Program-made: the position numbers and the translations under genes
Notes under the pieces: generated by a model
What the model saw: the letters and a program-made list of their open reading frames with translations, nothing else
What the model was told of the DNA's origin: nothing
Database searches by the model: none
In this document: one piece after another, positions 9,278-14,889 of the stretch
Numbering within the stretch: position 1 is the first letter of the stretch
How the letters are laid out: each line of letters opens with the position of its first letter
Source: Synergistaceae bacterium
GTDB taxonomy: Bacteria > Synergistota > Synergistia > Synergistales > Aminobacteriaceae
Reading direction: 5' to 3'
Assembly: GCA_018436595.1 (NCBI GenBank)
Contig: JAHDLC010000035.1
Span: 1-64,000 of the forward strand
Length of the DNA stretch: 64,000 nucleotides

Positions 9278-9787
9278 CTACGCCACGTCCCGCCCGCCGC
9301 CCCGGAGGGTGGACGGGAAGTCGGTGATCTGCAGATGAAGCCTGATGCCCGTGGAGATGATCATCAGGAAGGCGCTCACGGGAAGGGATGCGGTGACGAA
9401 GGAATAGCTCAGGGTGATGTTCTGGAACTGCCGTTTGAAATTTGAGATGCAGAGGGGGATTCCGTAGGCGATGAGCACCGCCAGGAAGAGGATGATGATC
9501 ACGGACCACGCGACGGCGAGGGTTTTCTGCGTCTTCAGAGGCAGCCGCGACGTCAGGAAATCGACGTTGATCACCCTGTTTTTCCGGATCCCCACGTCCG
9601 CCCCGAGGAAGGCACCCCAGGCGAACAGGAGGAGGGAAATGTCCACCGCCCAGTTAATGGGGCGGCCGACGAACCTGCCTATGGCGGAAACGAAAATCAG
9701 GACGGTGATGGCGCAAAGGGTGAAAGAAATAAACCGCTCCTCGATCGTGCAGACGCAGCGGTAGGTTTTTTTCAGAGCTTCAAGCAT
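9278..9787 (-). CDS. dctQ: TRAP transporter small permease subunit DctQ
   Basis: 169 residues with four predicted membrane helices (ISFTLCAITVLIFVSAIGRF, INWAVDISLLLFAWGAFLGA, a third around LAVAWSVIIILFLAVLIAYG, a fourth near SLPVSAFLMIISTGI). RKNRVINVDFLTSRLP after helix 2 is the usual DctQ segment. It sits between dctP and dctM, in the order dctP-dctQ-dctM. Confidence 0.9.
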   Translation of the reverse strand: MLEALKKTYRCVCTIEERFISFTLCAITVLIFVSAIGRFVGRPINWAVDISLLLFAWGAFLGADVGIRKNRVINVDFLTSRLPLKTQKTLAVAWSVIIILFLAVLIAYGIPLCISNFKRQFQNITLSYSFVTASLPVSAFLMIISTGIRLHLQITDFPSTLRGGGRDVA

Positions 9788-11092: not shown

Positions 11093-11137
11093 GATATGTG
11101 CGGCCCGGATATGTGCGGCCCGGATATGTGCGGCCCA
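11093..11137. repeat. Three tandem 15-bp repeats at the TRAP promoter
   Basis: GATATGTGCGGCCCG is repeated at 11093, 11108 and 11123 without interruption; the last copy differs at its final base. One and a half helical turns separate the copies. The array ends immediately beside the -35 box, where an activator would bind. Confidence 0.85.
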
Positions 11138-11182
11138 GGAGGCAATGTCCTTTTTTTCCGGAGAGAAATTCAGGAAAAGCTA

Positions 11183-11211
11183 TTGACATTGATAGGTTGT
11201 GCTGATATAAA
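11183..11211 (+). promoter_or_regulatory. Promoter of the serine biosynthesis operon
   Basis: TTGACA (11183-11188), 17 bases, TATAAA (11206-11211): near consensus. Transcription would start near 11218, about 27 bases before the leader-peptide ATG. Confidence 0.8.
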
Positions 11212-11244
11212 GTGAACAACTTTTTTTTCGGGGAGCTGCCGCTT

Positions 11245-11361
11245 ATGAACTTTGTGTGTCTTTTCGGGATTCTTGGTACGGGGTCATCTTCCTCCTCCTC
11301 TTCCGGCTGGTCCGGAAGGGCTGGTCTTCCCGTGCCGGCGGGGAAGGCGCCGCAGCCTTAG
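11245..11361 (+). CDS. Serine-rich leader peptide (transcription attenuator)
   Basis: A 38-codon reading frame, too short for normal gene callers. ATG at 11245, GGGGAG ribosome site at 11230-11235, TAG at 11359-11361. The peptide reads MNFVCLFGILGTG, then seven consecutive serines (11284-11304; codons TCA, TCT, TCC three times, TCT, TCC), then GWSG and a Pro/Ala/Gly-rich tail. Downstream come an intrinsic terminator (11408-11439) and the serine operon. This is the classical layout of his/trp/thr leaders: scarce charged seryl-tRNA would stall the ribosome in the run and change RNA folding. A short stem CTTCCGG/CCGGAAG (11300-11306/11312-11318) follows the run. CCGGAAGGG at 11312-11320 repeats the terminator's 5' arm and could pair with its 3' arm as antiterminator. 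The sequence is direct; the mechanism is inferred. Confidence 0.8.
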   Translation: MNFVCLFGILGTGSSSSSSSGWSGRAGLPVPAGKAPQP

Positions 11362-11407
11362 ATCAAGACACCGCGACAGAAACGCAGGATTCGATCGCAG
11401 GAAATAC

Positions 11408-11439
11408 AGGCCGGAAGGGAAATCCCTTCCGGCCTTTTT
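11408..11439 (+). terminator. Attenuator terminator before the serine operon
   Basis: Stem AGGCCGGAAGGGA (11408-11420) with TCCCTTCCGGCCT (11423-11435), then TTTTT. It lies 24 bases upstream of the first structural gene, so it must be read through for expression. Confidence 0.85.
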
Positions 11440-11462
11440 CATTTCGAAGGAGGGATACATCC

Positions 11463-12605
11463 ATGCAGCCCCATCTTTTCACCCCCGGACCGGTCTCCAT
11501 ACCCCACGAAATACGGCAGAGAGGCGCCGCACCCCTGGTCAGCCATCGAAGCGAGCCTTTCTTCTCCCTCCTGGAGGAGATTTCGGCCCGCCTGAAGAGG
11601 CTTCTGAGGGCGAAAGAGCCTCCGGTGCTCTTCCCAGGCTCGGGAACGGGAGCCCTCGAAGCCCTGGCAGCCAACCTCATCGCCCCAGGCGACCGGGTGA
11701 TTTCCTTCTCCTGCGGCGCCTTCGGTGACCGGTTCCGGGAGATCGCCGGCCGACGGGGAGCCGAGGTCATTCCCGCAGACATTCCCTGGGGGCGGGGCGC
11801 CACCCCGGACGACGTGAAGGACGCCCTGGCTCGGAGCCCCGATCCCGCCGTCGTTCTTTTCACCCACAACGAGACCTCCACCGGCGCCGTCACGCCTCTC
11901 GGGGAGTGCATCGCCGCCCTTCCTCACGACGGGCCCCTCGTGCTCGTGGACGCCGTCAGCTCTCTCGGCGCGCTGCCCTGCTTTCCCGAAGAATGGGGCA
12001 TCGACGGCCTTGCCTCCTGCTCCCAGAAGGGACTGCTCACACCTCCGGGCATCGCCGTGGCGGCCCTGTCTCCCCGGGGCTGGGCGAGGGCGGGATCCCG
12101 CCCCTGCCCTTCCTACTATTTCGACCTTTCACTGCACCGGAGGTTCCTGGAGAAAGAACGGCCCCAGAACCCCTACACCCCTCCGGTCACCCTGCTCTGC
12201 AGTCTTGCCGAAGCACTTCGGTTCCTGGAGGACTTCGGCTTCGGGAAATGGTTCCGGCTGAAGGCCAGAACGGCCGAAACCTTTGAGACCGCCTGTAAGG
12301 CCATGGGCCTTCCCCTCTTCGTGGAGGGCCCTGCCTTCCGCTCCCCCGCCGTCACGGCGGTGAAGGTGCCCGGAGGAAAGGGAAAGGAAATGAAGCATGC
12401 CCTGGAAACTCTCGGGGTGGAGGCCGCCGCCGGACAGGGAAAGGAACCCTCCCTGCTCCGGGTGGCCCATTACAGCCCGGGAGGATGGCCTGAACTCTCA
12501 CTTATCGCCGGAAGCATCTACGGAGCCGGGAAGATGTGCGGCCTGGACCTTCGGCCCGATTTTTCGGAAGCTGCCTGGAACTGCTGGACAAGGGAAGGGG
12601 AATGA
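11463..12605 (+). CDS. Class V aminotransferase, probable phosphoserine (serine-pyruvate type) aminotransferase
   Basis: 380 residues, fold-type I PLP enzyme of the serine-pyruvate/alanine-glyoxylate group. Visible elements: FTPGPVSIP, FPGSGTGALEALAAN (cofactor phosphate loop), THNETSTGAVTP, the PLP-ring Asp in LVDAVSSLGA, and the Schiff-base lysine K189 in SCSQKGLLTPPG. In many bacteria without a classical SerC, a member of this group transaminates 3-phosphohydroxypyruvate. Position before serA supports that role; alanine-glyoxylate or serine-glyoxylate activity is possible. Start chosen for GAAGGAGGG at 11447-11455. The downstream serA start overlaps its stop codon. Confidence 0.88.
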   Translation: MQPHLFTPGPVSIPHEIRQRGAAPLVSHRSEPFFSLLEEISARLKRLLRAKEPPVLFPGSGTGALEALAANLIAPGDRVISFSCGAFGDRFREIAGRRGAEVIPADIPWGRGATPDDVKDALARSPDPAVVLFTHNETSTGAVTPLGECIAALPHDGPLVLVDAVSSLGALPCFPEEWGIDGLASCSQKGLLTPPGIAVAALSPRGWARAGSRPCPSYYFDLSLHRRFLEKERPQNPYTPPVTLLCSLAEALRFLEDFGFGKWFRLKARTAETFETACKAMGLPLFVEGPAFRSPAVTAVKVPGGKGKEMKHALETLGVEAAAGQGKEPSLLRVAHYSPGGWPELSLIAGSIYGAGKMCGLDLRPDFSEAAWNCWTREGE

Positions 12606-14254
12606 CGGAAATGAAAGTGCTCGTGACGGATACCGTATCGGAAGCGGGAATCAGTCTGCTCCGGAAGGAGAAGGAGCTCCAGGTGGAAGTGCGGCTCGGC
12701 CTCTCCAGGGAAGAACTGCTGGAGGCGGTGGCCGATGCGGACGGCATGCTGACCAGGAGCGGTACGCCCCTCGACGGGGAGGTGCTTGGAGCGGCGAAGA
12801 AACTCCGGGCCGTGGCCAGGGCAGGTGTCGGCGTGGACAACATCGACCTGGCGGCGGCGAGCCGCCGGGGGATCGTGGTGATCAACGCCCCCACCGGAAA
12901 CACTCTCGCGGCGACGGAGCACACTCTGGCCATGATGCTCTCCCTTGTGCGGAAGGTACCCCAGGCGTGGAACTCCCTGGCGTCGGGCGAATGGAAGCGG
13001 AGCCGGTTCATGGGCATGCAGCTCTCGGGAAAGCGGCTTCTGGTCATCGGCCTCGGGAGGATCGGAACCCAGGTGGCCCTGCGGTGCCGGGCCTTCGGCA
13101 TGGAGGTGTCCGCCTACGACCCCTACATATCGAAGGAAAAGGCGGACCGCGCGGGGGTCCGGCTCCTGGATGACCTTTCCGGGGCTCTTTCCCTTGCCGA
13201 CGTGGTCACCCTCCACGTCCCTCTCACCGCCGAGACCAGGCGGCTGCTCGACGGCCGGCTTCTCAAAGCCTGCAAGCGGGGAGCCTTCCTGGTGAACTGC
13301 GCCCGGGGCGGCCTGGTGGACGAAGAAGCCGTCGCAGACGGCGTACGCTCCGGCCTTCTCGCCGGGGCCGCCTTCGACGTGTTCGACGGCGAGCCGGTCC
13401 GAACGGACCATCCCCTCCTCGCACCGGACATCCGGGAGAAAGTCATCCTCACCCCCCACATCGGGGCCAACACGGAAGAGGCACAGTCAGCCGTGGCGGT
13501 GATCGCCGCATCCAATCTCGCTGCCGCTCTCCTGGGCAGGCCCTATGAGCACGCGGTGAACCTTCCCTTCTCCGAGCAGCTTCTCTCCGACGGGCGGAGG
13601 GCCTATCTCTCCCTCGCCCGGAAGATGGGGTACCTCGCCGCCCACCTTCTCCGGGAGCCGGTGAAGGAGATCCGGGTCACCCTCCGGGGGCCCCTCTTCT
13701 CGAAAGGGGACGACCCCATCTGCTTCGAAGTGCCCTACCACTACTCTCCCTTCACCGTGGCGGGGCTCAAGGGCATGCTCGAGGTCTCCCACGGGCCGGA
13801 GGTGAACTACATGTCCGCTCCCCTCCTGGCCTCAGACAAGGGAATCGCCGTGGAGGAGAGCCGGGGGGAGGGAGGCACCTACAAGAACCTCCTGGAAGTG
13901 ACCATCAGTGCCGAAGGCTCCCGTGAAGGGGTCACCGTATCAGGCACGGTCACCGAGGAAGGCCGCCAGCGGGTGGTGAACCTCAACGGCTACTGGATCG
14001 AGTTCGTCCCCGAGGGAACGGTGCTCCTGTTCAGCAACCACGACCGCCCGGGGGTCATCGGGAAGGTGGGGACCATCCTCGGCGAGGCGGGGTCCAACAT
14101 CGCCAACTTCGCCCTGGGGAGGAAAAACGGCAGCGGTCTTGCCGTGGGGGCGCTCCAGATCGACAACGACATCCCGCCGAAGGTCATCGAGACCTTCAAG
14201 GCCGACGCGGACCTTCTCTGGGCAGTGAAGGTGAACTTCTCCGAGGCCCTGTGA
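12602..14254 (+). CDS. serA: D-3-phosphoglycerate dehydrogenase
   Basis: 550 residues, the long SerA type. Order: N-terminal substrate domain (GMLTRSGTPLD, ARAGVGVDNIDLAAA), NAD-binding domain (LLVIGLGRIGTQVALRCRAF), catalytic Arg/Glu/His residues in VNCARGGLVDEEAVADG, DVFDGEP and LTPHIGANTEEAQ, an intervening ASB domain (~310-460), and a C-terminal ACT domain (LLFSNHDRPGVIGKVGTILG, NIANFALGR). The ACT domain commonly confers serine feedback. It oxidises 3-phosphoglycerate to 3-phosphohydroxypyruvate. ATG 12602 overlaps the previous stop as ATGA; ATG 12611 is an alternative with better spacing to AGGGAAGGGG. Confidence 0.95.
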   Translation: MTEMKVLVTDTVSEAGISLLRKEKELQVEVRLGLSREELLEAVADADGMLTRSGTPLDGEVLGAAKKLRAVARAGVGVDNIDLAAASRRGIVVINAPTGNTLAATEHTLAMMLSLVRKVPQAWNSLASGEWKRSRFMGMQLSGKRLLVIGLGRIGTQVALRCRAFGMEVSAYDPYISKEKADRAGVRLLDDLSGALSLADVVTLHVPLTAETRRLLDGRLLKACKRGAFLVNCARGGLVDEEAVADGVRSGLLAGAAFDVFDGEPVRTDHPLLAPDIREKVILTPHIGANTEEAQSAVAVIAASNLAAALLGRPYEHAVNLPFSEQLLSDGRRAYLSLARKMGYLAAHLLREPVKEIRVTLRGPLFSKGDDPICFEVPYHYSPFTVAGLKGMLEVSHGPEVNYMSAPLLASDKGIAVEESRGEGGTYKNLLEVTISAEGSREGVTVSGTVTEEGRQRVVNLNGYWIEFVPEGTVLLFSNHDRPGVIGKVGTILGEAGSNIANFALGRKNGSGLAVGALQIDNDIPPKVIETFKADADLLWAVKVNFSEAL

Positions 14255-14889
14255 TGAAGCGGGTCTTTCTCGTACGGCACGGGGAAACGGACTGGAACAG
14301 GGAAGGACGGTTCCAGGGCCAGATGGACATCCCCCTGAACGGAACGGGGCTGGTCCAGGCCCGTTCCGTCGCGGAGGCGCTGAAAGACGTTTCCCTGGAC
14401 AGGATCGTGACGAGTCCCCTCTCCAGGGCCAGGGAGACCGCCCGCCCTCTTGCGGAAGTGAAGGAACTGCGGGCGGAACTGTCCGAAGGGCTCATAGAAA
14501 TAGGGCACGGCCTCTGGGAAGGCCGCACCTACGGCGAAGTGGAGGCGGAGTGGCCGGGAAGGCTCGAAGCCTGGCACACCCGGCCCGAAACGGTGGTCAT
14601 GCCCGGAGGGGAGAGCCTCGAGGACGTGCAGAACCGCGCCTGGCCCGCCCTGCTTCGGATTGCGGAAGGAAAGGGTGAAAACATCGCTGTTTTCACCCAC
14701 GACGCCGTGCTGAAAGTCCTGCTGATGAACGTGCTGGACTGTCCTCTCTCAAGCTTCTGGAAGTTTCAGCTCGCCAACGGAAGCATCACCCTCCTCGAGC
14801 GTACGGACAGGGGATGGCGGATTCCCCTGATGGGCGAGGCGGGGCACCTGGGCAATCCCTTTCTCCGGGAAGAGCAGAAAGGCCTGTAA
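14254..14889 (+). CDS. Histidine phosphatase (PGAM) family protein, probable phosphoserine phosphatase
   Basis: 211 residues. The catalytic motif VFLVRHGETDWNREGRFQG holds the phospho-accepting His; the second RHG-type elements are SPLSRARETA, the acid EIGHGLWEGRTY, and the C-terminal His in VFTHDAVLKVLL. The family includes phosphoglycerate mutases, CobC and the metal-independent phosphoserine phosphatase PspA of Hydrogenobacter. Its place as third gene of a serine operon, overlapping the serA stop (TGATG), makes phosphoserine phosphatase the best guess. No HAD-type SerB is in the window. A GTG at 14251 is an alternative start. Confidence 0.82.
   Translation: MKRVFLVRHGETDWNREGRFQGQMDIPLNGTGLVQARSVAEALKDVSLDRIVTSPLSRARETARPLAEVKELRAELSEGLIEIGHGLWEGRTYGEVEAEWPGRLEAWHTRPETVVMPGGESLEDVQNRAWPALLRIAEGKGENIAVFTHDAVLKVLLMNVLDCPLSSFWKFQLANGSITLLERTDRGWRIPLMGEAGHLGNPFLREEQKGL

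Follow-up and report, generated by a model that had tools for sequence, protein, structure and literature searches.

A run of seven consecutive serine codons in a short reading frame upstream of serA raises the question of whether a serine biosynthesis operon in the phylum Synergistota is controlled by transcription attenuation, with the ribosome that translates this frame acting as the sensor of seryl-tRNA charging. The locus lies in a 64,000-nucleotide stretch of DNA (the window) from a Synergistota genome; its serA gene is 93% identical to serA of JAAYJB010000016.1 ('Synergistaceae bacterium'). The leader region has TRAP transporter genes, encoded on the opposite strand, on one side and an aminotransferase-serA-phosphatase operon on the other side. 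The original prediction had named a promoter, a Shine-Dalgarno (SD) sequence, a 38-codon frame with seven Ser codons plus one more, a hairpin after the run and an intrinsic terminator, followed by these three genes. Each of these features was found where it had been placed, and the gene order was confirmed, with serA passing TIGR01327.

Layout of the serA leader region and the proposed mechanism

The leader region and the operon contain the following features:

11183–11211, plus strand: sigma-70-like promoter, with TTGACA as the −35 element (11183–11188) separated by 17 nt from TATAAA (11206–11211)
11230–11235, plus strand: SD sequence of the leader, GGGGAG; GGGGAG, AGGGAG or AGGAG is found at the equivalent site in relatives
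11245–11361, plus strand: leader peptide ORF of 38 amino acids (MNFVCLFGILGTGSSSSSSSGWSGRAGLPVPAGKAPQP), with ATG at 11245 and TAG at 11359–11361; Ser-rich orthologous ORFs occur at about 70 loci
11284–11304, plus strand: seven consecutive Ser codons (TCA TCT TCC TCC TCC TCT TCC), the proposed sensing site, with in-frame Ser enrichment and TCN bias
11298–11307, plus strand: segment A (CTCTTCCGGC), which forms the 5′ side of the post-run hairpin and is additionally complementary to the terminator 5′ arm over 10 bp
11312–11320, plus strand: segment B (CCGGAAGGG), 3′ arm of the post-run hairpin A:B, with an alternative pairing with segment C
11326–11346, plus strand: second hairpin C:D (CTTCCC..GGGGAAG) with an invariant GCCGGC in the loop, candidate antiterminator strand of the window's clade
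11408–11435, plus strand: intrinsic terminator E:F of 12 bp with a loop of 4, followed by a T tract; covaries between relatives
11463–12605, plus strand: class V aminotransferase (PF00266), scoring under all NCBIfam equivalog cut-offs
12602–14254, plus strand: serA, D-3-phosphoglycerate dehydrogenase with an ACT domain (TIGR01327, 565 bits against a cut-off of 454; PF01842)
14254–14889, plus strand: histidine-phosphatase-superfamily protein (PF00300), scoring over the threshold of CobC (alpha-ribazole phosphatase) and under that of PspA (phosphoserine phosphatase)

The TATAAA element was passed over by the promoter scanner because the scanner demands a final T. A TATAA box is kept in 10 relatives, and TTGACATTGATAG in the nearest. 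Immediately 5′ of the promoter, a unit of about 16 nt (atatgtgcggcccgg) is repeated three times in tandem (11095–11140) and is absent from the equivalent site in the close relatives that were read. Eight T residues in a row (11221–11228) would be among the first transcribed bases; the T run is retained here in close relatives and could allow slippage or reiterative transcription. On the minus strand, ARAGORN called a 93-nt tRNA-Val (9596–9688) inside a reading frame adjoining the TRAP transporter genes, which is probably a false call. The eighth Ser codon of the leader (11311–11313) lies just past the run of seven, and the hairpin directly 3′ of the run is CTTCCGG-CTGGT-CCGGAAG. The terminator ends 27 nt 5′ of the aminotransferase start at 11463, and an SdsR match to the terminator region, sub-threshold at E 0.21, was dismissed. 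The core leader motif has a single mismatch-free occurrence in its own genome.

The top NCBIfam matches of the aminotransferase were the BhcA, pyridoxamine-pyruvate and PhnW types, with SerC very weak, and it is from operon context that this enzyme is presumed to catalyze the phosphoserine aminotransferase step. As none of the NCBIfam equivalog cut-offs is reached, this group may have a phosphoserine transaminase that forms a class V lineage of its own. Operon context likewise points to the third gene product as the presumed phosphoserine phosphatase.

According to our model, the region very probably acts as a ribosome-mediated transcription attenuator, with seryl-tRNA charging as the signal and the serine biosynthesis operon as the target. 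In this model, RNA polymerase would start near 11218 and a ribosome would translate the 38-codon leader. When Ser-tRNA is ample, the ribosome would pass the Ser codons and reach the stop codon, where it would cover or disturb the segment just past the run; terminator E:F would then form and transcription would end. When Ser-tRNA is short, the ribosome would stall within the Ser run, 10–40 nt before the antiterminator segment. The free segment would pair with the emerging 5′ arm of the terminator (E), the terminator would not form and the operon would be transcribed. It is from the leader, the conservation of its Ser codons, the terminator, and the complementarity and position of the post-run segment that we infer ribosome stalling, termination and a response to serine.

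Conservation and codon content of the leader

A comparison of the upstream regions of serA-type operons in related genomes had been suggested along with the original prediction of a seryl leader-peptide attenuator, and it bore this prediction out, as the Ser run, frame, stop codon and terminator were conserved in relatives. The search set was 188 genomes of the phylum, in which the aminotransferase was matched in 73 and SerA in 87, and 84 serA-operon loci were usable, each having 220 nt or more 5′ of the first gene. About 70 of these 84 loci, all in an order-level group, contained a short ORF with 4–9 Ser per 10 codons followed by a terminator, and the leader was found in every one of the nine families of the order with a serA match. 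Among 72 candidate-leader loci, 71 had a terminator located between leader and first gene, with a few misplaced by the automatic search. Over the 84 upstream regions, the best Ser count per 10 codons of a short ORF averaged 5.3, compared with 2.75 for dinucleotide shuffles and 2.5 for the reverse strand, and 38 genomes exceeded all 200 shuffles. The Ser-rich leader is not a product of chance.

In two congeners (G001 and G002, loci L028 and L027) the aminotransferase was unmatched, and the leader and terminator still precede serA. These genomes represent a natural shortening of the operon in which the leader, the terminator and serA remain. Operons consisting of serA only also carry the leader (G010, G030, G032, G046, G047 and G051–G053). 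As the leader stays with serA when the aminotransferase is unmatched and in serA-only operons, we conclude that the element belongs to the serA operon. The Ser leader was absent from the serA-bearing genomes G027 (L038), G143, G144, G145, G168 and G171 and from all four genomes of family f11, and an Rfam scan found no Rfam element upstream of serA in the leaderless loci L038, L087, L089, L106, L220 and L221. Among approximately 70 loci from other phyla, a set skewed to Firmicutes and methanogens, no comparable leader adjoined serA.

Codon statistics were computed for an 18-codon leader core and weighted by genus. Ser accounted for 41% of codons in frame compared with 4.4% and 5.0% in the other two frames. 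AGY codons were also in excess in frame (4.6% compared with 0.3% and 2.1%) in a core that was picked by TCN codons only, indicating that Ser decoding rather than a TCC repeat was selected. TCN codons constituted 72% of the Ser codons in the genes for the aminotransferase and SerA but 88% of those in the leaders (p = 2e-15). It is at the TCN serine codons that ribosomes slow down when B. subtilis is starved of serine (PMC3862929).

These data also bear on explanations that would leave the Ser codons without a regulatory function. TCC/TCT repeats occur elsewhere in the genome, and the TCC run might be one more low-complexity tract with no regulatory role. However, the run is in frame with a start, a stop and a terminator over about 30 genera and AGY is found among its Ser codons, so that this explanation has next to no credibility. 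It is highly improbable that the ORF encodes a small functional peptide and that the terminator is unregulated. The peptide tail SGWSGRAGLPxPA is conserved in the nearest clade as a functional peptide might be, but this conservation coincides with RNA pairing segments, such as the invariant CCG at the Pro codon. Moreover, across families Ser richness alone is kept while peptide length, ends and most non-Ser residues diverge, and the ORF followed by a terminator is 5′ of serA operons in nearly every case.

Control by an RNA that binds a ligand or a tRNA (a riboswitch or a T-box), with the Ser ORF being incidental, has a precedent in that some serine genes of Firmicutes are under T-box control, and our own scan found T-boxes upstream of serA in two Firmicutes loci. 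In contrast, no T-box, as defined by stem I, a specifier loop and an antiterminator carrying the T-box sequence, was detected in the window or its tested relatives, with the Firmicutes loci as positive controls, and no Rfam family reached its cut-off in the window or the tested relatives. Covariance models for the serC RNA motif (RF00517), His_leader and other Rfam amino-acid leaders had no match in the window. The conserved RNA between relatives was confined to the pairing segments, and we consider control by such an RNA very unlikely. Sensing of seryl-tRNA by a translating ribosome is the explanation that we retain.

Ser was not the only amino acid enriched in the leader cores. Gly constituted 16.9% of codons in frame, whereas the two other frames had 6.1% and 4.6%; for Cys the in-frame value was 6.1% compared with 1.5% and 0.9%; relative to a composition shuffle of the non-Ser leader codons, Cys was enriched 2.7-fold and Gly 1.9-fold. 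Cys makes up 1.2% of the aminotransferase and SerA, and core Cys was present in 51 of 67 leaders. Glycine and cysteine both derive from serine, and the ilvGMEDA leader, in which Ile, Val and Leu codons jointly stall the ribosome, provides a model for sensing of several amino acids. It is conceivable, though somewhat doubtful, that the ribosome would stall at Gly and Cys codons near the Ser run as well, such that serine would be sensed jointly with its products. The in-frame enrichment of both residues, their excess over the shuffle and that of Cys over the structural genes argue for this possibility. On the other hand, GGN codons may be retained for hairpin pairing with TCC, Ile, Phe and Met were likewise above expectation, and the sole Cys of the window leader is well 5′ of the Ser run. 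A fuller version, which we regard as speculative and rather unlikely, is that the attenuator might read the charging of tRNAs for Ser, Gly and Cys, hence the whole serine-derived family, with its use of the six Ser codons weighted to the starvation-sensitive TCN set, as a phylum-specific arrangement.

Predicted pairing with the 5′ arm of the terminator

A central feature of the original prediction was that CCGGAAGGG occurs both after the Ser run and in the terminator 5′ arm, so that the terminator 3′ arm would have two partners. Both copies (11312–11320 and within the terminator 5′ arm) are present in the sequence, but the B:F switch did not survive comparison with relatives. In the window's clade the terminator covaries between GGAAGGG/CCCTTCC and GGGAGA/TCTCCC, the latter in family f10, whereas segment B is unchanged. 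We rejected pairing between 11312–11320 and the terminator 3′ arm as a general mechanism because it is unconserved in f10. Conserved throughout the order instead is an alternative pairing, between the terminator 5′ arm and a segment 3′ of the Ser run.

This pairing was examined by comparing the terminator 5′ arm (E) of each genome with the RNA between its Ser run and terminator, using its own arm and the arms of other genera. The post-run segment paired better with its own E than with those of other genera (31 genera; KS p = 6e-5 and 7e-6), and with an upstream extension of the E arm the own pairing had the advantage in 25 of 30 genera (p = 3e-5). The pairing segment started at a median of 24 nt past the last Ser codon and ended at a median of 12.5 nt before the leader stop codon; it was located 25–50 nt past the Ser run in 87% of loci compared with 30% of shuffles. 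In most genera the predicted antiterminator is a single helix of 8–14 bp. In the genus of G134, CCGGUCCCGAAACG pairs with CGUUUCAGGGACCGG (−32 kcal/mol including flanking pairs), and in the related G169 the corresponding pair is CCGGUCUCGAAGCG and CGUUUCGGAGAUCGG, such that antiterminator and terminator arm changed together. The mismatched-genome test detected no conserved region 1:2 hairpin, which would lie between the Ser run and the antiterminator segment.

Judging from ribosome footprint sizes, the antiterminator segment would be free when the ribosome stalls on the Ser codons and would be covered or abutted once the ribosome reaches the stop codon. In partition-function calculations, which agree with this, the median cost of freeing E was 8.5 kcal/mol when the ribosome was placed on Ser, 2.4 kcal/mol when it was at the stop codon and 5.2 kcal/mol for shuffled sequences, although part of the stall-versus-stop difference is built in because less upstream RNA is available for pairing in the stop state.

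For the window's own clade there are two candidate antiterminators. Ten near relatives share CTCTTCCGG..TGGTCCGG, GCCGGC in the second hairpin's loop and GGCCGG within the terminator arm. This pattern suggests pairing of GCCGGC (D) with E within a his-like series, in which A:B, C:D and E:F would alternate with B:C and D:E. The downstream antiterminator of this clade is weak, at about −15 kcal/mol, which is no better than with the arms of many other genera. Alternatively, the end of the Ser run could possibly pair with E, a stronger predicted helix of 8–12 bp (−13 to −21 kcal/mol); in the window this 10-bp pairing competes with hairpin A:B. Our preference for D:E, because hairpin A:B should form first and thereby leave the Ser-run end occupied, is tentative, as the data fit either pairing.

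Taken together, a short ORF with a ribosome-binding site and predicted translation lies between the promoter and the first gene, it contains a conserved run of codons for the amino acid that the operon produces, an intrinsic terminator separates it from the first structural gene, and a helix that would compete for the terminator 5′ arm is found across about 30 genera considered jointly. In its predicted anatomy, the element has every attenuator feature that was sought across the order.

Relation to known attenuators and serine leaders

The classical leader-peptide attenuators are those of his, trp, thr, leu, ilv and phe operons, mostly in Proteobacteria and with predicted examples in Actinobacteria and Firmicutes. 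Serine control was previously known to involve T-boxes and feedback inhibition, and the Synergistota are known as amino acid fermenters. Candidate leaders in Actinobacteria concern other amino acids as well as another phylum (PMC1262725), and his leader candidates have been described in Firmicutes (PMC9413887, PMC2965389). The Synergistota leader differs from those of Proteobacteria, Actinobacteria and Firmicutes in its seryl specificity, its association with a serA operon and its order-wide distribution in another phylum.

Several systems resemble it in part. Serine T-box leaders of Firmicutes, for example in Paenibacillus (PMC8002221), also sense tRNA-Ser charging and control serine genes, but they bind uncharged tRNA directly, whereas the Synergistota element has no T-box by a scan that finds T-boxes in other phyla. 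The serC RNA motif RF00517 of Alphaproteobacteria, a short two-stem element proposed to hide a ribosome-binding site (PMC1273637), is similarly positioned 5′ of serC-serA genes but has neither a leader peptide nor a terminator. The TCN codon sensor of B. subtilis sinR (PMC3862929) likewise uses slow TCN decoding as a serine signal, but acts inside a coding sequence without a leader or terminator. Within Rfam and the open papers covered here, we found no serine leader peptide, seryl attenuator or Synergistota attenuator, in keeping with the original suggestion that a seryl leader for serA is apparently undescribed.

The approximately 70 natural variants provide material for studying the joint evolution of leader, antiterminator and terminator, and TCN versus AGY usage in the leaders constitutes a natural test of codon choice in starvation sensing. 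A close likeness is to the his attenuator, with its seven-codon run, six segments (A:B, C:D and E:F), extra hairpin and terminator before the first gene. The window leader shares the seven-codon run for the product of the operon, the extra hairpin before the terminator and the position of the terminator, and differs in amino acid, operon and phylum and in having no sequence similarity to Rfam His_leader. With the trp, thr, leu, ilv and pheA attenuators of Proteobacteria it has in common a leader ORF, regulatory codons, a terminator and an antiterminator that pairs with the terminator 5′ arm. On this anatomical evidence, the seryl serA leader is predicted to work like the his and trp attenuators while lying outside every Rfam leader family by sequence, and an order-wide seryl attenuator in Synergistota would extend the mechanism by one amino acid and one phylum.
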